A DNA stretch of 34,857 bases from a virus. Positions 11,156-34,857 of the stretch are shown one piece after another. Below the pieces are notes generated by a model. The model saw only the letters and a program-made list of their open reading frames with translations, made no database searches and was not told the origin of the DNA. The position numbers were made by a program, and so were the translations under genes. Within the stretch, counting starts at the first letter, position 1. The number at the start of each line of letters is the position of its first letter. The stretch lies in the IMG/VR virus record IMGVR_UViG_3300025168_000021, positions 1 to 34,857 of that record; one strand, given 5' to 3'.

Positions 11156-11187
11156 ATTATCTATTCCAACACGTTCTATATATAACT

Positions 11188-11203
11188 ATGTTTTTAAGCA
11201 AAA
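11188..11203. promoter_or_regulatory. Shared GCTTAAAAACATA promoter box between divergent genes
   Basis: Minus-strand TTTTGCTTAAAAACATA ends about 33 bases before the ATG at 11155. The same TTTTTAA/TTAAAAA core lies about 36-42 bases before the plus-strand ATG at 11233, so one TATA region may serve both directions. This is one of five near-identical copies in the genome. Confidence 0.65.
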
Positions 11204-11232
11204 CTTATTAAGGTCATGTTGTAACGTAATAC

Positions 11233-19148: not shown

Positions 19149-20588
19149 TTAATCGGTTGTACTGATTCTAACAATAGATGTTGAATCAATAACCCCGGCC
19201 TTAGTTCTCCAGGTCGTATTTACCCTCACTTGGTTGTCCTCACCGATCTCATGCATTTTCACAGTAACATCACGTTTGATACCAATTCCATAACTGTGTT
19301 TTGGGACACACATATAGGCATTAACTGCATTATTGGTACTATTGTTTTTGTGTTCTACTGCGTTTGTAACAATTAACTGGACTCCCATAAATTGTTCCAA
19401 CTCGGCCTTAAGCCAAATATCTGGAGCACTTCTGGTTGCCAATGATGTTACATTGGTGCTGGTGATTAGTTCTCTCCATTGTTGCGGATCTAAGAAGCAA
19501 ATTGGTTTAATTCCTCCCCGTAGATACCCCTGGTTTTCCAAATATTCTCTTCCGAATGCAATACCTGTCTCGTCCATAGCCATGGAGGCTACATCTGATG
19601 ATGTGATAGTTGCACCTGTATCACCACGAATCCAAAGTCCAGGAGTTAAAGTTCCTTCTTTTGAAATAGTGTCCAACATATCGGTTGCCACGAAATCTTC
19701 GTATGAAGCGGCAGATCCTTCTACTATTGCTTGGAGCAAATCGAAAGGACTGTTTTCCACCTCATCAAAGTCTCCAACAAGATATACACCAGTAATTGTG
19801 CTTGGTGTAACTTCTACACTTGTAAAGGTTTGAGTGGCTTCTGATGGTGTTGTACCAACGGTTTGTGAACCGTTAGCTGGAATAGTTGTTTTGAAAAATC
19901 TTGCTCTGTCCATACCTGCTTCAATGCGTTTAGTCTTTGCAAATTGAAACACTGGTTTGAAAGAAATGCCACCTGGAATTATTGCAACATCAGTATCTAA
20001 ATCCTGTGTTGCATGGGTACCAGAAATGGATACGGCTTCTTTAAGTTGTAAAGGACTGTCTCTGAATGATTCAGATACGGAACCTTGTCTGTCTCGGGTC
20101 TGTTTGGTGTTGATGCTTCTTAGAGATTCTAATGAAATATCAAACTCAAATTTACCGAATTTTCTTAAAGATGGAGCCATCTGCTCGGCTACTTGACTCC
20201 AGGTCTTATGACCGTCGTCTAGGCCTACTTGGGCTGATGGTTTCTTTTCTGCTAGAGCTTTAATGGATTGTTCAATGGCGCTAAGTCTCTTGTTGTTCTC
20301 TGTTGCAATAGATGTATTTGTTTTACCAATATCATCAGTTTTATCAGAGCCATTTGGTTCACATATACCAGAGTCTTTGTTTAATGAATGACCTTCTGGA
20401 CATTGTGTTCCTTCAACTTCTTGACTTCCACCTACGTCGGCACCAGATGATGCTACGTCGGCTTCTACATCAGTAGTTTTAGGATCTCCAAATGCAGATT
20501 CTTTAGCTACACATTTTCCTTGTGAGATATCGAAGTGTTGTCCCTCGGGACATTCTTCGTTTTCTGATTTTTTACAATCGCAAGGCAT
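19149..20588 (-). CDS. Major capsid protein, HK97 fold, with Cys-rich N-terminus
   Basis: 479 aa. Residues about 165-479 fit an HK97-type capsid subunit: DTDVAIIPGGISFKPVFQF, a beta-rich E-loop/spine region, PICFLDPQQWRELI, QFMGVQLIVTN and the C-terminal KRDVTVKMHEIGEDNQVRVNT strand set. Residues about 85-160 are helical, as in the delta (scaffolding) domain removed by the prohead protease. Unusually the first 80 residues carry two CPEG-x-x-x-x-x-x-x-G-x-C modules (Cys 13/26 and 63/76) after a CDC start. Gene order (protease, KTSC protein, capsid, connector) supports the call. Confidence 0.85.
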   Translation of the reverse strand: MPCDCKKSENEECPEGQHFDISQGKCVAKESAFGDPKTTDVEADVASSGADVGGSQEVEGTQCPEGHSLNKDSGICEPNGSDKTDDIGKTNTSIATENNKRLSAIEQSIKALAEKKPSAQVGLDDGHKTWSQVAEQMAPSLRKFGKFEFDISLESLRSINTKQTRDRQGSVSESFRDSPLQLKEAVSISGTHATQDLDTDVAIIPGGISFKPVFQFAKTKRIEAGMDRARFFKTTIPANGSQTVGTTPSEATQTFTSVEVTPSTITGVYLVGDFDEVENSPFDLLQAIVEGSAASYEDFVATDMLDTISKEGTLTPGLWIRGDTGATITSSDVASMAMDETGIAFGREYLENQGYLRGGIKPICFLDPQQWRELITSTNVTSLATRSAPDIWLKAELEQFMGVQLIVTNAVEHKNNSTNNAVNAYMCVPKHSYGIGIKRDVTVKMHEIGEDNQVRVNTTWRTKAGVIDSTSIVRISTTD

Positions 20589-20787: not shown

Positions 20788-21529
20788 GTAAGGTCTTTAT
20801 CTCCCTGTTGAAAAATGCTCCTTTACTGGCTGCTCCCTCAAATGAATCAAACAATCTTTCCGATACTCTACAAAAATGATATGTATTACCATTTAGTATA
20901 ATATCCATTTCTCTGCTTTCCCTATCCCATAACACATTACCTACAAATGATGATGAGTGAGTAAATGCCCTAAATTCTGGGTTTCCTACTGTGTCTGATT
21001 TTTGTTGACCTATTGATGTGGGATTATCACTTATTTGTTGTTTAATATCGTCTGGAATAGGCTCACTCTTAATATCTGATACAGATTTATTTGTAGGTGC
21101 ATTTAATATTGTCAATGCTAATCCTGCCACTGATGCACTAAACGTGGCTGTTAAAATAATTGATAATTCAGGCTTATTAATAGATGTTAATGCCTTAATA
21201 TTCATATCAGATAAATCATCAAACTCAATATCGGCTATATTAGCATCTAATTTCATTTTTTTTAATAAATCTCTCCTTTGTTGTGGTTTTAATTCAATCC
21301 ATAACTTTTTTAGTTTATCTTTACTAATTGATTCCGTTACTGTATATTTATCATGTAAATAATGCTCTACCTCTTTCCAATGTTCGTCTAACGCTTCATT
21401 AAACTGAAATCCTCTTGGCACTTTTGCAATTTTCTTTTTTTTCTTAATGTCTGCTCTGGCTGTGGGTCCCGCTAGGTTAACATCTTCTAGTCGTTTTTTT
21501 TTGCGTGTAATTCGCCACAGTCTGGACAA
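20777..21529 (-). CDS. KTSC-domain protein, possibly made by -1 frameshift from the prohead protease
   Basis: Up to 250 aa. A lysine-rich N-terminus and helical domain (about 35-115) lead to a hydrophobic segment (ELSIILTATFSASVAGLALTIL, 121-142), an acidic linker and a C-terminal KTSC domain (about 191-247: SSFVGNVLWDRESREMDIIL, then FEGAASKGAFFNREIK). KTSC domains occur in phage capsid-associated proteins; their role is unclear. It has no ATG near its 5' end. TTG at 21529 is the only usual start, 43 bases inside the protease gene. The alternative is fusion through the A9 slippery run. It may be a scaffold or minor head protein. Confidence 0.7.
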   Translation of the reverse strand: MSRLWRITRKKKRLEDVNLAGPTARADIKKKKKIAKVPRGFQFNEALDEHWKEVEHYLHDKYTVTESISKDKLKKLWIELKPQQRRDLLKKMKLDANIADIEFDDLSDMNIKALTSINKPELSIILTATFSASVAGLALTILNAPTNKSVSDIKSEPIPDDIKQQISDNPTSIGQQKSDTVGNPEFRAFTHSSSFVGNVLWDRESREMDIILNGNTYHFCRVSERLFDSFEGAASKGAFFNREIKTLHDC

Positions 21530-22056
21530 GCTTCTACATTTAGATGATTCAAAATCTGATCTATACTTTTGGTCATTTTTGTATAGTCCTGTCCTACTTC
21601 TAGTGGATTATGATGGTTACATTCCTCTATATATCTCTCCATTACATTTACTGTTGTTTCTGGAACCCCTGGTGTTTCTGTCAATGCTAGTCCTACTGGA
21701 TTTAATCCATAAGGCATTGAAAAACAATCTCCGGGCCCGTTACAAATTTCCCGTAAATCAGTTGGATTAGCTTCTATACTGGTGAATAATGTTTTATTTT
21801 TAGCCAAACTTGCGGCACCTTCGTTGGTAATTTCTCCCTCATAATATACTGTCTCTAAACTTGGATTATAATGAAAAGTGGCAGTTCCGATAACTTGACC
21901 TGGATTATGTTCCCAATTCAGTGGAACCTCTACACCATCAAATCTTTCTAATTCGGCTTTGGTGTATAGATTGTTATTTCTGCTAATTCTGGGAATTAAT
22001 GCCACACCAGAGATTTTTGCCGTTTCATTTATTTTAGTATAAGCTTCTAATTTCAA
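21487..22056 (-). CDS. Prohead maturation protease
   Basis: 189 aa. Begins MKLEAYTKINETAKISGVALIPRISRNNNLYT and has EVPLNWEHNPGQVIGTATF (candidate catalytic His50) and LFTSIEANP (candidate Ser93), with a beta-rich core like the herpes/HK97-type capsid serine proteases. Function: trims the capsid delta domain before maturation. Its C-terminus ends in a zinc knuckle-like CPDCGELH and an A9 run. The TTG start follows a TTTAATTAAAAAAAT TATA-like stretch by about 10-20 bases. Confidence 0.75.
   Translation of the reverse strand: MKLEAYTKINETAKISGVALIPRISRNNNLYTKAELERFDGVEVPLNWEHNPGQVIGTATFHYNPSLETVYYEGEITNEGAASLAKNKTLFTSIEANPTDLREICNGPGDCFSMPYGLNPVGLALTETPGVPETTVNVMERYIEECNHHNPLEVGQDYTKMTKSIDQILNHLNVEACPDCGELHAKKND
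21493..21503 (-). other. A9 slippery run in the protease/KTSC overlap
   Basis: The minus strand reads GCAAAAAAAAACGAC. In the protease frame the last seven bases are A-AAA-AAC, the textbook -1 slippery heptamer; a -1 slip puts ribosomes into the KTSC frame. Nine A in a row could also give transcriptional slippage. Confidence 0.45.
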
Positions 22057-22207: not shown

Positions 22208-22441
22208 TTATTTCAATCCTTGCAAAACTTCAACTACTGCAAACAATATGCCCATTCCTGCTATTACGATATAGAATTTTCTGTCCTTGTTGGCTTGTTT
22301 GCTCTCTATTTCTTTAAAATGGGTCCCTAATTCATACTCCACTTTCATCAGTCGTTCACATAGTTTCTCTATCTTTTCCTCAAAGGTGTCTAATCTGTCC
22401 AAGATCCTTTTAGTCAAATCATCAAACTCGGTCATTGACAT
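22208..22441 (-). CDS. Coiled coil with C-terminal membrane segment
   Basis: 77 aa. Residues 5-52 form a charged coiled coil (DLTKRILDRLDTFEEKIEKL and following heptads) and 57-74 a hydrophobic segment (YIVIAGMGILFAVVEVL). This layout is that of XhlA-type small phage proteins linked to holins, and also of membrane-anchored assembly factors. It overlaps the portal gene end by 10 bases, unlike the lysis cassette 7 kb away, so a head-assembly membrane anchor is possible. Confidence 0.65.
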   Translation of the reverse strand: MSMTEFDDLTKRILDRLDTFEEKIEKLCERLMKVEYELGTHFKEIESKQANKDRKFYIVIAGMGILFAVVEVLQGLK

Positions 22442-27798: not shown

Positions 27799-27830
27799 GT
27801 ATTATTTACGGTGGTTCTTCTATATAATCT

Positions 27831-27847
27831 TATGTTTTTAAGCAAAA
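27831..27847 (-). promoter_or_regulatory. GCTTAAAAACATA promoter box
   Basis: Minus-strand TTTTGCTTAAAAACATA, about 33-41 bases before the ATG at 27798. It directly abuts the T-rich terminator of the preceding gene. Confidence 0.7.
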
Positions 27848-28017: not shown

Positions 28018-28050
28018 GGTTATATTAGGCCATACGTTCTATTTATAATT

Positions 28051-28067
28051 ATGTTTTTAAGCAAAAT
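28051..28067 (-). promoter_or_regulatory. GCTTAAAAACATA promoter box
   Basis: Minus-strand ATTTTGCTTAAAAACAT, about 34-42 bases before the ATG at 28017, followed by AATTATAAATAG. It lies just after the stop of the 29-aa zinc gene. Confidence 0.7.
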
Positions 28068-28068
28068 A

Positions 28069-28158
28069 TTAATCATGACATGAACAGCCACAAGCCATGT
28101 GGTACCAATCCTTTATCTGTTTGGTACATTTCTCACAGGTATGGAATTTTTTGGTCAT
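28069..28158 (-). CDS. 29-aa zinc-knuckle mini-protein
   Basis: HTCEKCTKQIKDWYHMACGCSCH: six metal-ligand-type residues in 29. ATGA overlap with the 67-aa gene (28155-28158). It is the last gene of the lysis transcript. Function unknown. Confidence 0.55.
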   Translation of the reverse strand: MTKKFHTCEKCTKQIKDWYHMACGCSCHD

Positions 28159-28358
28159 GGTGGTTCAATCCTCGGGAATGTTATGGCTATCATATCTGCG
28201 TAATCTCTTAACCAATCAACCTCTATCATTACCTGTCCATGGGCTTCATGTGATGCGATACAATCGTATAATGTCCTAGTAATTGCCTTGGTTACTAGCT
28301 CCCATACTTGATCTTCTGTGTATAGGTTTAATTCCTTGGGTCCCTTATCTTGTGGCAT
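28155..28358 (-). CDS. 67-aa hypothetical protein
   Basis: Two helices: EDQVWELVTKAITRTLYDCIAS and VDWLRDYADMIAITF. The ATG at 28358 lies inside the end of the 23-aa TM gene. No recognised family; may belong to the lysis group by position. Confidence 0.6.
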   Translation of the reverse strand: MPQDKGPKELNLYTEDQVWELVTKAITRTLYDCIASHEAHGQVMIEVDWLRDYADMIAITFPRIEPP

Positions 28359-28416
28359 AATACATAGTATAAACTGCTATAATGATTAAAGATGAAATAA
28401 TATAAATCCTATTCAT
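28345..28416 (-). CDS. 23-aa single-membrane-segment peptide
   Basis: After MNR the peptide is one hydrophobic segment (YIISSLIIIAVYTMYYA) and ends in TR. The ATG overlaps the matrixin stop (ATGA at 28413-28416) and the stop overlaps the next start, so translation is coupled. Small one-TM peptides beside lysis genes often act as holin partners or membrane disruptors; that role is an inference. Confidence 0.5.
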   Translation of the reverse strand: MNRIYIISSLIIIAVYTMYYATR

Positions 28417-29108
28417 CGCCTAACGGCTAGGCATAACCAGCGTTTTATGATGTTATACCACTTGAATCTTGACCAGACTCTTTGTCCATATTTTACTCTG
28501 ATTCTGTATATGTCTCTATCAGATAGGTCCAGATTATCTACTGAATAGTATGGGTCCATTACATCACTACCATCTTTGGCACCTGTTACGTCATGTTTTA
28601 GTCCTAGTGTATGACCTAACTCATGGATTAATACTGCATAGATATTGTAAGTTTTTAGTATGTTGTCTGGATAAGCGTTCTCCACTAGCCCTTTCTCTAT
28701 TGCTTTATCTCCTCTAATACCCTTACCTTTTAGGTCCCAGATGTATGAAGCATTAAATACCACCTGTCCTGACACGCTTCCCTGATTTGGGAAATAGGCA
28801 TAGGCCAACACGCTGGGTTTTTCTTTGAAATAATTATCCTCATCTTTTGTCCTGAATCTTATCTCTATGTCCGCTTTAGTATTCCAAGCTGATTTAAATT
28901 TAGTTGGTATTTCAAAGTTCCATGTGGATATTGCCAGATTTACTGCTCTCTTTAACTGTCTTTTGGATATTAATTTTAATGATTCATGGTATTCCACGTC
29001 ATAATATAGCACATCATTATCCCATTTACCCTCCCATTCTGTTTGTTCTGCAATAAATTCTACCTTTCCATTTAATTCATTACGAGCAATAACACAGTTA
29101 GGGTTCAT
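28413..29108 (-). CDS. Matrixin-type zinc metalloprotease
   Basis: 231 aa. The active site HELGHTLGLKHD (162-173) and the Met-turn SDVMDPYY (181-188) define a metzincin of the matrixin (M10) type. Residues about 48-125 carry the expected helix and beta sheet (AVNLAISTWNF, ADIEIRFRT, GQVVFNASYIW). There is no signal peptide; the C-terminus is a basic, aromatic amphipathic stretch (VWSRFKWYNIIKRWL). Archaea without peptidoglycan are enclosed by a protein S-layer, so this is a plausible endolysin-equivalent or entry enzyme. It follows a holin-like gene. Confidence 0.88.
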   Translation of the reverse strand: MNPNCVIARNELNGKVEFIAEQTEWEGKWDNDVLYYDVEYHESLKLISKRQLKRAVNLAISTWNFEIPTKFKSAWNTKADIEIRFRTKDEDNYFKEKPSVLAYAYFPNQGSVSGQVVFNASYIWDLKGKGIRGDKAIEKGLVENAYPDNILKTYNIYAVLIHELGHTLGLKHDVTGAKDGSDVMDPYYSVDNLDLSDRDIYRIRVKYGQRVWSRFKWYNIIKRWLCLAVRR

Positions 29109-29110
29109 AA

Positions 29111-29147
29111 TAAAAATAAAAAAGTGACCTAAAAAAATACTTTTAGG
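29111..29147 (-). terminator. Hairpin plus T-tract between holin-like gene and matrixin
   Basis: CCTAAAA (29128-29134) and TTTTAGG (29141-29147) form a perfect 7-bp stem with a 6-base loop; on the minus strand it is followed by TTTTTTATTTTTATT and, at once, the matrixin ATG. The stem includes the holin-like stop codon. A stem and U-tract here could act as an attenuator that limits or delays protease expression. Confidence 0.55.
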
Positions 29148-29319
29148 CTTTGTTATCTGATTTATGCTTTACATAATCTGCCCCAATTAGCAAAGCTATT
29201 GGTGCCAATAATGCAACGGCCACAGTATCATCTAGGGCTATTTTATCGAGACCTGTCCAAAGTGCTACAAGTCCACCATAAATTCCCAGACCATAATATC
29301 TTAGGTTTCCTGCTGACAT
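29143..29319 (-). CDS. 58-aa two-TM holin-like protein
   Basis: Residues about 8-24 (YYGLGIYGGLVALWTGL) and 32-49 (TVAVALLAPIALLIGADY) are hydrophobic segments separated by LDKIALDD, with a charged tail KHKSDNKA. Two short TM segments and a charged C-terminus are the class II holin layout. It is the first gene of the lysis transcript, about 25 bases after a TAATATATAG box. Expected role: timed holes in the membrane that release the protease. Confidence 0.7.
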   Translation of the reverse strand: MSAGNLRYYGLGIYGGLVALWTGLDKIALDDTVAVALLAPIALLIGADYVKHKSDNKA

Positions 29320-29339
29320 AATAATCGATTAAATTTGCA

Positions 29340-29350
29340 CTATATATTAG
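29340..29350 (-). promoter_or_regulatory. TATA-like box of the lysis cassette
   Basis: The minus strand reads TAATATATAGTGC about 25 bases before the ATG at 29319, good leaderless spacing. Confidence 0.5.
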
Positions 29351-30757: not shown

Positions 30758-30847
30758 TTACCTATAGCCAATAACATGGCATTTACAAGTGCATATATCT
30801 TTTTCCCAATGAACTATTTTACAATCATAGCATATTATTTTGGACAA
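30758..30847 (-). CDS. 29-aa zinc-knuckle mini-protein
   Basis: A TTG start overlaps the end of the glycosyltransferase gene by 13 bases. The peptide has CYDCKIVHWEKDICTCKCH: five Cys and two His in one small module. Between its stop and the next gene (30721-30757) there is AT-rich sequence with no further gene. Confidence 0.45.
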   Translation of the reverse strand: MSKIICYDCKIVHWEKDICTCKCHVIGYR

Positions 30848-31707
30848 CTGTTCAACCTCATACCGTATTCATTGATGCCTTTAGATACTGTTATGTTATC
30901 TTTTCTTTTTAGTTTGTTCTTTCTGAATGGTGTATAATCTACAAAATGATGTGGCCTACCAAACTTATACACCAGTTTGGTCAAATCAGGGTGCATATCC
31001 AACAACATTTTTGACTTTAGATAGGTACCCTCTTTGCTGTAAAACTGTTCCGTATTGCCACCTTTTACCTGTTGGGTCCCAACTTTGTTTTGTAAGAAAG
31101 CATAAAATTGAACAGTACACCAATTATCCTTTAACATTCTTAATGATAAATCCGTATCCTCATTATATCTACCTCTCCATCTGTATGGTGTATCATTTCT
31201 AATTAAATTACATGAATAAATTCTGGTATTCATGCTGAATGGTGGTAGCTTTGAGTTTTGACTGGCAAAGAATCTGTAATTGGGCCCTGCCATGGCAATA
31301 TTTTCATATCTGTCCACAAAGTTTTCCATCGCTGTAAATATACTGGCACTTGTTACCTTATACTTTTTGTTTCTGTTAAGTCTTGCAAACCCTTGGATAT
31401 TGTCGTCCATTACCCAATGAAAATCAAATCCTTTTTCTATTGAATGGTCCCATGCAAAATTTCTGGCTGCACCAGGGCCAGTTACTTTGTTAGTATCTTT
31501 CCAAAACATATCATAATCATCATAGTATTTCTGTGGTTGAATGATAACATTACCATATCTTTCGTCTGTTGCCTTGGTGTATTCATCTACCTCTGTTGCA
31601 TCTACTATGATATTATATGGACACTTCATCTCCTCTAATGATTTTGCAGTATATCTGGTATCATATCTGCCCTTAGATACTATGTATATTGGATATTTTG
31701 GTATCAT
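30835..31707 (-). CDS. TET-associated-type glycosyltransferase (GT-A fold)
   Basis: 290 aa. Begins YPIYIVSKGRYDTRYTAKSL, followed by YNIIVDATEVDEYTKA, then VTGPGAARNFAWDHSIEKG and the metal/nucleotide-sugar motif HWVMDDNIQGFAR (DDN at 101-103), and WRGRYNEDTDLSLRML near 178-193. This order matches the TAGT family of phage and protist genomes, thought to add sugars to hydroxymethyl-pyrimidines in DNA, as part of anti-restriction hypermodification. I see no TET/JBP dioxygenase or thymidylate-synthase-like hydroxymethylase here, so the substrate is open: host-made modified base, DNA, or a virion protein. Confidence 0.8.
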   Translation of the reverse strand: MIPKYPIYIVSKGRYDTRYTAKSLEEMKCPYNIIVDATEVDEYTKATDERYGNVIIQPQKYYDDYDMFWKDTNKVTGPGAARNFAWDHSIEKGFDFHWVMDDNIQGFARLNRNKKYKVTSASIFTAMENFVDRYENIAMAGPNYRFFASQNSKLPPFSMNTRIYSCNLIRNDTPYRWRGRYNEDTDLSLRMLKDNWCTVQFYAFLQNKVGTQQVKGGNTEQFYSKEGTYLKSKMLLDMHPDLTKLVYKFGRPHHFVDYTPFRKNKLKRKDNITVSKGINEYGMRLNSCPK

Positions 31708-33362: not shown

Positions 33363-33471
33363 ATAGTGACTCTAACAAATCTTTAATTAAGAAATATATC
33401 TCTTCCTGCTCTGACCTTCTCTTAAAATCTGTTAAGACTATTCTGTCCTCTGTTATTTCTGCATTAACCAT
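33355..33471 (-). CDS. 38-aa charged helical mini-protein
   Basis: EITEDRIVLTDFKRRSEQ then EIYFLIKDLLESLYG. Its ATG lies within the stop region of the phosphoesterase gene (overlap 8 bases) and its stop overlaps the 63-aa start. Function unknown. Confidence 0.5.
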   Translation of the reverse strand: MVNAEITEDRIVLTDFKRRSEQEEIYFLIKDLLESLYG

Positions 33472-34276
33472 GTTCATTTACCTTACTTTTATAAGCATCA
33501 AAAGAAATAGTCATGGTGCCTGGTTTGCTAGTCATGAGTTTGTTACCTTTTTGTTCCATCCATTGATCTTTGTTGTTTGATACTGCCGTAGTAAAACAAC
33601 CACTATTTACCATAATTTGTTCTTTAGAATCCCATGAATTTTTCTTATCATTATAAAAAAATGTGTCTCTTTTTACTGCCATTGGATCGTGTAAATGGCC
33701 CATCTGATAAATATCTGCTTCACAGTTAACCGTTAAATTCTCTAGTGCTTTAAGGGTCCCACCACCACCAGCTCCATGATTGACAAATAGTGTTTTTTTC
33801 ATCATTGATTTACCTTTGAATTGTATATCTAATCTGATAAATCCTTTACTGCCTAAGAATGTCATGTTATTGTATTTGCAATATCTTTTCATGTCTCCCT
33901 CGGTTACCACTCTGGATTTATACTCATGATTACCCCATTGGAGATACCATATCTTTTCCATGCCATAATGTTTAAGATAGTATTCCTGTTCATCATATAA
34001 CTCGGCACATCTTTCGTCCAATTCGTCTTGTTGTTCGGCTAGAGTTCTTAATGATACTGCTTCGTCTTTGAATCTTGGATCACCTGGTAATATTAAGTCC
34101 AGTTGATCTCCACCAAAACTTGTAAATCTATATGGATCATTTAGAATGTCCTTAACTCTCCTTGTAAATAATTCATCTTGAAAATTAGTATTGCCAATAT
34201 GTATGTCTGATAGGTTTTCCCAATGCACTATTGTATCTTTTTTATCTAACTCTATAATTATTTTTTTGGAATACAA
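33464..34276 (-). CDS. Calcineurin-like metallophosphoesterase
   Basis: 270 aa with all five family motifs in order: DIH (24-26), GGDQLD (55-60, usually GDxxD), GNHE (115-118), NHG (166-168) and GHLHD (193-197). This fold cleaves phosphoesters with two metal ions: nucleic-acid ends (SbcD/Mre11-like), nucleotides or proteins. Without an SMC partner and near a PD-(D/E)XK-like nuclease, DNA-end or RNA processing is a fair guess. The start is TTG at 34276, since a stop lies directly upstream in frame; the 31-aa zinc gene overlaps it. Confidence 0.88.
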   Translation of the reverse strand: MYSKKIIIELDKKDTIVHWENLSDIHIGNTNFQDELFTRRVKDILNDPYRFTSFGGDQLDLILPGDPRFKDEAVSLRTLAEQQDELDERCAELYDEQEYYLKHYGMEKIWYLQWGNHEYKSRVVTEGDMKRYCKYNNMTFLGSKGFIRLDIQFKGKSMMKKTLFVNHGAGGGGTLKALENLTVNCEADIYQMGHLHDPMAVKRDTFFYNDKKNSWDSKEQIMVNSGCFTTAVSNNKDQWMEQKGNKLMTSKPGTMTISFDAYKSKVNEHG

Positions 34277-34353: not shown

Positions 34354-34787
34354 ACAAAATATTCTCCAGCTTCTAACTTTGCCAAGTGTTTGCTATATTC
34401 TTCCCATGCTCTATATGTAACCAAAAATTCTGTCAATTCATCTATTGATACATTCTTTAACTCCATTATTTTTCTTAGGTCTTTGATTGATTCATGATTG
34501 ATTAGTATGTATTCCAGATTTATTCTTTCAAAATCTGCATTTCTTTTTAATGTTGATGCCGTTGGCATTTCTAGGGTCCCATGTACTTTGCCATCTGATT
34601 CTATGTATCTGTCCATTTTGCCATAAACGAATTTGATATCCACATTACGTTCCTTGTATTTCTGGGTAAATTTACCATTCTTTATGTTTACCTCTCTATG
34701 TACTCTAAAGCCTGACTTTGTTAATGATGAATGTATTAAATCCTCTTTGTTTTTACCTGATATGGCATGATTGATCTTCTTATTCAT
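34350..34787 (-). CDS. PD-(D/E)XK nuclease, Vsr/DUF559-like
   Basis: 145 aa. NVDIKF (Asp50), YIESDGKVHG (Glu63, Asp65, His69), then LKRNADFERINLEYILIN. The order D...E-x-DG-x-x-H...KR-x-x-F/D is that of very-short-patch-repair-like and DUF559 nucleases. It may act in mismatch repair, recombination or host-DNA attack. The ATG at 34787 follows AGAGGT by 11 bases; the GTG at 34826 lies in the preceding zinc gene in another frame. The gene spans the terminal repeat and so is whole only in the closed circle. Confidence 0.7.
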   Translation of the reverse strand: MNKKINHAISGKNKEDLIHSSLTKSGFRVHREVNIKNGKFTQKYKERNVDIKFVYGKMDRYIESDGKVHGTLEMPTASTLKRNADFERINLEYILINHESIKDLRKIMELKNVSIDELTEFLVTYRAWEEYSKHLAKLEAGEYFV

Positions 34788-34857
34788 TACAGATTTATTA
34801 CCTCTAGGCAAGTTGGCAGTCCTCACATTTTTTAATACTTCTTTCGCTTCTTGTTTC
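34731..34857. repeat. Terminal direct repeat, copy 2
   Basis: Identical to 1-127. Joining the copies restores a continuous operon: nuclease (34350-34787) preceded by the 31-aa zinc gene (74-169) and the MCM group. Confidence 0.95.

Follow-up and report, generated by a model that had tools for sequence, protein, structure and literature searches.

A small two-helix membrane protein paired with exchangeable zinc metalloproteases: a putative lysis module of tailed viruses of thaumarchaeal type

The locus and its genes

The stretch of DNA analyzed here, referred to as the window, is the whole of IMG/VR record IMGVR_UViG_3300025168_000021 (34,857 bases, 35% G+C), in which the minus strand bears nearly all genes. 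An earlier sequence-only reading had described, between positions 28069 and 29350, a chain made up of a TATA box, a 58-aa protein with two transmembrane (TM) segments, a hairpin, a matrixin, a 23-aa peptide and two further small genes, and had interpreted it as a lysis cassette built on a protease. A check of the sequence confirmed that all of these parts are present on the minus strand; they are listed here together with two genes located elsewhere in the window.

29339..29347, minus strand: TATA-like box AATATATAG, 20-28 nt ahead of the tm58 start codon
29143..29319, minus strand: tm58, 58 aa, two hydrophobic segments, holin-like
29109..29148, minus strand: hairpin CCTAAAAGTATTTTTTTAGG (~29128-29147) with a T-rich run, lying over the tm58 stop codon and directly before the matrixin start
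28413..29108, minus strand: matrixin, 231 aa, with the HELGHTLGLKHD zinc motif and the Met-turn DVMDPYY
28345..28416, minus strand: tm23, 23-aa single-TM peptide, the start of which overlaps the matrixin stop (ATGA)
28155..28358, minus strand: 67-aa soluble conserved protein, kept in close relatives and in L035-L040
28069-28158, minus strand: 29-aa ORF, found in few relatives
22208..22441, minus strand: XhlA-like protein, 77 aa, coiled coil and C-terminal TM segment, between the portal and prohead protease genes
21487-22056: prohead protease; its homologue in Nvie-Pro1 is the protease portion of the protease/MCP

The virus and its probable host

An exact direct repeat of 127 bp is found at both ends of the record (1-127 and 34731-34857), which makes it probable that the genome, of ~34.73 kb, is complete and circularly permuted. 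Its genes for an MCM helicase, a large terminase (TerL), a portal, a major head protein (MCP) and tail-fiber-like proteins mark it as that of a tailed virus. TerL has one relative only among 50,697 phage records, that of Nvie-Pro1 (45% over 83%), a provirus of the thaumarchaeon Nitrososphaera. The MCP (33%, E 1e-47), the prohead protease (35%, E 5e-23, to the protease part of the protease/MCP) and the portal (23%, E 3e-11) match the same provirus, and the matches of the MCM, which are weak, all lie in archaeal viruses. From these viral relatives, rather than from a spacer match, we infer that the host is a thaumarchaeon, i.e., an ammonia-oxidizing member of the Thaumarchaeota/Nitrososphaeria.

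The prohead protease and the MCP (19149-20588) are separate in the window, their homologous parts being a single fused gene in Nvie-Pro1. A TET-associated glycosyltransferase (PF20691, E 1.5e-46) is encoded at 30835-31707, which suggests that the DNA of the virus carries modified bases, and a calcineurin-like phosphoesterase, with a weak Pfam match (E 0.004), at 33464-34276.

The matrixin

The 231-aa protein matches the entire Pfam M10 profile (PF00413, positions 1-159 of 159) with an E value of 4.2e-24 and 85.7 bits against a cut-off of 24, and its sequence matches in the PDB are MMP catalytic domains, including MMP-8 at 5e-11. The AF2 model, which is of medium confidence (pLDDT 74.7), has karilysin as its top Foldseek match (8.8e-10). 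H162, E163, H166, H172 and M184, as well as C5, are invariant in 22 sequences, down to 40% identity. Judged by the profile, the MMP sequence matches and the predicted fold taken together, the protein is a matrixin, with proteolysis as its predicted activity. No match to it was found in the 50,697 phage records and none in PHROGs, and a profile scan of bacterial and archaeal genomes gave, among the matches listed, unrelated bacterial metzincins only, the patterns being too general to bear on proviruses. As regards peptidoglycan or pseudomurein hydrolases, the enzyme matched solely metalloprotease families. Since it belongs to a protease family, the matrixin falls, by its sequence, outside the endolysins, and it is in the way it works that the pair described below would resemble a holin and an endolysin.

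The sequence-only reading had offered a secreted or a holin-released protease as alternatives. Its second option fits and its first does not, since the N-terminus, MNPNCVIARN, shows no signal peptide by eye and the protein has no hydrophobic segment, so that, from its sequence, the matrixin is a soluble enzyme of cytoplasmic type. The invariant C5 precedes the catalytic domain in all 22 sequences, with no PRCGxPD motif around it and with an AF2 pLDDT below 50 at residues 1-5. It lies roughly at the position of the cysteine switch of matrixins, and one might suggest that it could hold the enzyme inactive in the cytoplasm.

The membrane protein tm58 and the small genes downstream

In tm58, which had been described as a protein with two TM segments, both segments are present, the first of them being weakly hydrophobic (Kyte-Doolittle peak 1.26, as against 2.14 for helix 2). 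TM topology, like the signal peptides, was judged by eye from charges and hydropathy. With R7 in a basic N-terminal region, an acidic loop (LDKIALDD) and a basic C-terminal tail (KHKSDNK), the predicted topology is that of an N-in/C-in hairpin, and on this reading the protein fits the form of a class II holin, i.e., small, with two TM segments, a charged C-terminal tail and both termini inside. No match to tm58 was obtained in Pfam at E<=1, and in PHROGs it matched unknown families only and no curated holin family.

The proposal of a lysis cassette had been made dependent on conservation of the TM frames, and this is borne out by the pooled pN/pS values of 0.24 for tm58 and 0.45 for tm23 (matrixin 0.15; 67-aa gene 0.11), which indicate that both frames are under purifying selection. 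For the 23-aa frame, it is the value of 0.45 that argues for a gene; between the window and L014, tm23 shows five synonymous changes and one nonsynonymous one. In relatives its start codon is TTG (a TTGA overlap with the matrixin stop); a stop/start overlap of the ATGA kind is the usual sign of coupled translation. It is present in close relatives and absent from those at 57-63% identity and from the L035-L040 clade, and by this distribution tm23 is a real gene confined to one clade. It is possibly an accessory holin or antiholin. The 67-aa and 29-aa genes had also been counted as members of the lysis set, for which no support was found, and this part of the idea was dropped.

Signals around the pair

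At a distance of 20-30 nt ahead of tm58, a TATA-like box is present in relatives with the matrixin and in those with the other enzyme type described below alike, and this spacing implies that the transcript starting at tm58 would be leaderless or nearly so. The hairpin CCTAAAAGTATTTTTTTAGG at the tm58 stop codon has a folding energy of -8.1 kcal/mol (z -2.7), and a hairpin forms at or near that stop codon in 23 of 24 sequences, the exception being L040; the individual z-scores, from -1.4 to -3.7, are modest. Its arms are CCTAAAA/TTTTAGG in the matrixin type, to which the window belongs, as against AATAAGG/CCTTATT in the zincin type, and in both types the gap between tm58 and the enzyme is mostly 31-38 nt, with a T-rich run after the hairpin. 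On the simplest reading, hairpin and T-run would act as a terminator or attenuator, with less enzyme than membrane protein being made as a result.

As a separate observation, a near-identical stretch (87-88% identity) that contains GCTTAAAAACATAA and an A+T-rich, TATA-like part occurs on the minus strand at 28034-28077, 27818-27847 and 11171-11218. Being found ahead of several genes, it looks like a shared promoter element.

Conservation of the pair and exchange of the enzyme

In relatives with 81-89% matrixin identity, the order orf320-tm58-matrixin-tm23-orf67 is kept wherever the contig covers the region. The predicted order of holin-like gene, matrixin and TM peptide thus holds in these relatives and loses its last member in those at 57-63%, where tm23 is absent. 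A profile search for related signal-less matrixins showed a protein of the tm58 family, or of a family with three TM segments (3-TM family), upstream in 35 of the 35 loci with enough upstream sequence, with one gene lying between the TM protein and the matrixin in the two most distant loci, L056 and L058. This agrees with the earlier claim that a small TM protein and the matrixin form a linked pair; taken alone, it could reflect shared descent.

The reverse search, in which tm58 alone served as the query and which was thereby blind to the neighboring gene, returned 57 viral contigs. The gene following tm58 is a matrixin in 23 of them, an unrelated HExxH zincin of ~150 aa in 33 (several of these contigs end within the locus) and neither in 1, so that a metalloprotease-like gene directly follows tm58 in 56 of the 57. 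Clustering at 95% identity leaves 34 clusters, divided 13/20/1 in the same order. The single exception, L175 (4001-4925), has a head-tail connector-like gene directly after tm58 and no enzyme, having apparently lost its zincin. In the tree of tm58, four changes of enzyme type are needed, of which the well-supported branches force at least two, the 58 alignment columns giving weak support elsewhere.

The ~150-aa protein carries an invariant HExxHx13H motif, and no relation between it and the matrixins was detectable in Pfam or PHROGs. Its structure model is of high confidence (pLDDT 89, pTM 0.86); a Foldseek search with the model gave nothing under E 0.001, and its structural neighbors are mostly zinc hydrolases at middling Z, with YbeY as the best (7.5) and MMPs at about 6. 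The model thus points to a likely zincin fold. In the zincin-type contigs G010-G013 no M10 match was found.

As judged from these sequences, the membrane protein has persisted through a replacement of the enzyme at the same place by another family of zinc hydrolases. This exchange goes well beyond the sequence-only reading and strengthens its central claim of a lysis pair. Modularity of this kind is typical of holin-endolysin cassettes, in which likewise the membrane part stays and the enzyme part swaps families, and by this analogy the combination of a kept TM protein with an exchanged enzyme would be hard to explain otherwise.

XhlA-like proteins, the 3-TM family and secreted matrixins

In the zincin-type viruses the gene before tm58 encodes a protein of 63-81 aa in which a coiled coil is combined with a TM segment at the C-terminus. 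The profile built from these proteins (A7) finds the window gene at 22208-22441 with E 3.7e-20, and the family is present in close relatives as well; in the window it lies 6 kb from the tm58-matrixin pair. Its best match in PHROGs is to "hemolysin" (3.4e-4), and that to Pfam XhlA (0.003) is below the cut-off; coiled coils yield many false matches. A comparable arrangement is seen in Nvie-Pro1 (L223, 9235-9743), genes 11-12 of which encode a coiled-coil/TM protein followed by a 69-aa two-TM protein, in the same order as in the zincin-type marine viruses. No sequence relation of the 69-aa protein to tm58 is detectable, and the gene that follows it has, in place of HExxH, zinc-ribbon-like cysteines. 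From their form and order, these two genes are possibly the lysis genes of that provirus.

The 3-TM family (85-87 aa) has a weak match to the LydA holin family (E 0.006, below the cut-off). Among 80 contigs carrying it, a matrixin comes next in 14 and no metalloprotease in 66; in those of the latter that were read, a prohead protease follows. The 3-TM family, at least, can thus, on the gene orders seen, exist without an adjacent enzyme. In ten long contigs of the prohead-protease kind an M10 match is found elsewhere in the contig, and in the nine of these that were read it lies in a matrixin-like protein that is larger and begins with a hydrophobic, signal-like segment. This second matrixin-like type (L204-L213 and L215-L218; records G001, G002, G004-G008, G015, G016 and G018-G022) has 260-310 aa, the motif HE[FLI]GHG/ALGLGH and an apparent signal peptide. 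Both kinds of matrixin occur together in four genomes with the cytoplasmic enzyme (those behind L041, L046, L049 and L058) and also in the one behind L185. From the presence or absence of such signal sequences, it seems that the protease leaves the cell in different ways in different lineages, by a holin lesion in some and by secretion in others.

A putative lysis pair and the alternatives to it

In the model that we favor, with a probability of roughly two in three, tm58 and the matrixin bring about lysis as a pair, tm58 being a class II-like holin that releases the cytoplasmic metalloprotease onto the S-layer; the lesions, the release, the substrate and lysis itself are what we infer here from sequence and gene order. 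According to this model, tm58 would gather in the cytoplasmic membrane, folded into a hairpin of two helices with both termini inside, and form lesions at a set time, late in infection, until which the matrixin, which has no export signal, would be held in the cytoplasm. Once released through the lesions, the matrixin would cleave the S-layer, which consists of protein, or the anchor that holds it to the membrane, following which the cell would burst. The XhlA-like protein (22208-22441) and tm23 may tune the membrane step, and the hairpin and T-run may make enzyme transcripts rarer than holin transcripts. To our knowledge, the S-layer is the sole rigid layer of these hosts, which makes a protease a plausible replacement for an endolysin. 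Several points count against the model: tm58 resembles no curated holin family and its first helix is of low hydrophobicity, the LydA and XhlA matches fall below the curated cut-offs, the 3-TM family is in 66 of 80 contigs not followed by a metalloprotease, the XhlA-like gene of the window lies at a distance from the pair, and a link of the enzyme to the S-layer in particular is presumed.

Other roles for the matrixin have to be weighed against this model. A protease acting inside the infected cell, in host takeover, in degradation of host regulators or in superinfection exclusion at the membrane, with tm58 as its membrane anchor or inhibitor, would likewise have no need of a signal peptide, and the one-to-one link between the neighbors would also suit a complex of an enzyme and its partner. 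A specific inhibitor or anchor is, however, harder to reconcile with the same TM protein standing next to a non-homologous enzyme, and a lysis cassette accounts better for small TM peptides and for a third gene of XhlA-like type, so that we regard this role as unlikely.

It appears still less likely that the matrixin is a virion enzyme, located at the tail tip, that opens the S-layer at entry, with the TM neighbor either unrelated or aiding genome delivery. L019/L041 does have a fiber-like gene two genes downstream of the pair, and the zincin-type viruses place the pair between scaffold and head-tail connector genes; in the window, however, it lies upstream of terL and away from the tail genes, and the link between TM protein and enzyme persists as the pair shifts its position in the genome. 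Moreover, no relative has the enzyme fused to a structural domain, and the 58-aa membrane protein stays when the enzyme family changes. Processing of capsid or tail precursors by the matrixin has very little to recommend it, even though tailed viruses need a maturation protease and the TM gene of the 3-TM viruses adjoins the prohead protease gene: the window has its own, separate prohead protease (21487-22056; E 5e-23 to that of Nvie-Pro1), with which capsid maturation can do without the matrixin, and among the related large viruses there are many whose prohead protease gene is present with no matrixin gene adjacent.

Beyond the window, we consider the odds to be about even that a lysis scheme is shared among the tailed viruses of marine ammonia oxidizers, in which the S-layer is broken with the help of holin-like proteins whose partners are exchangeable cytoplasmic zinc proteases (the matrixin or a zincin not described before) in some lineages and secreted matrixins in others. 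This would amount to an archaeal counterpart of the holin-endolysin system that works by proteolysis. To the question of how tailed viruses leave archaea with an S-layer, the present finding contributes named genes and two exchangeable enzyme families; and as the apparent hosts, the ammonia oxidizers, are very abundant in the ocean, their route of lysis bears on nitrogen and carbon cycling.

Comparison with known systems

Taken by itself, the enzyme resembles the peptidases of MEROPS family M10, such as karilysin and the MMP catalytic domains, in the HExxHxxGxxH motif, the Met-turn and the fold of the catalytic domain, and differs from them in having neither a signal peptide nor a hemopexin domain, in its very short N-terminal segment and in an identity of 20-30%. 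The closest likeness in arrangement is to the PBSX lysis cassette, the order of which is xhlA-xhlB-xlyA (PMC5589764). There, too, a small two-TM protein stands beside a soluble hydrolase without a signal peptide, and the order of XhlA-like gene, tm58 and enzyme in the zincin type corresponds to that of the three PBSX genes, with matches of at best 0.003 (Pfam XhlA) and 3.4e-4 (PHROG hemolysin). In contrast to PBSX, the hydrolase here belongs to the proteases (matrixin or other zincin) and not to the enzymes that digest peptidoglycan, tm58 has no demonstrated relation in sequence to XhlB, and the XhlA-like gene of the window lies elsewhere, 6 kb away. The LysF1a/LysF1b proteins of cluster F1 mycobacteriophages (PMC13056207) likewise combine a two-TM protein with N-in/C-in topology and a one-TM protein in one cassette; tm23, however, is far smaller, lies behind the enzyme and has no shown sequence relation to them, and the hosts of the F1 phages have peptidoglycan.

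As for archaeal viruses, a search of the literature on matrixins or metallopeptidases in them, with subscription journals and preprints mostly outside its scope, gave nothing relevant, and within that scope the cassette is unreported. A review of 2015 states that a holin gene was unknown in isolated archaeal viruses, as was an S-layer-degrading enzyme, and puts forward a holin together with a protease as a hypothesis, without an example (PMC4456609). The pyramids of Sulfolobus viruses are also a virus-coded exit from an archaeon with an S-layer, but in that case one membrane protein, PVAP, forms the pyramid and a protease plays no part (PMC4456609). A further case is the haloarchaeal virus HRTV-DL1, for which, as cited in PMC10384203, a holin-like protein and a surface glycosyl hydrolase have been suggested. 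As far as that citation goes, both proposals pair a disruption of the membrane with an enzymatic weakening of the S-layer; they differ in that the enzyme is a glycosidase in HRTV-DL1, whereas in the thaumarchaeal-type viruses it would be a protease, proposed here on the basis of a comparison of many genomes.
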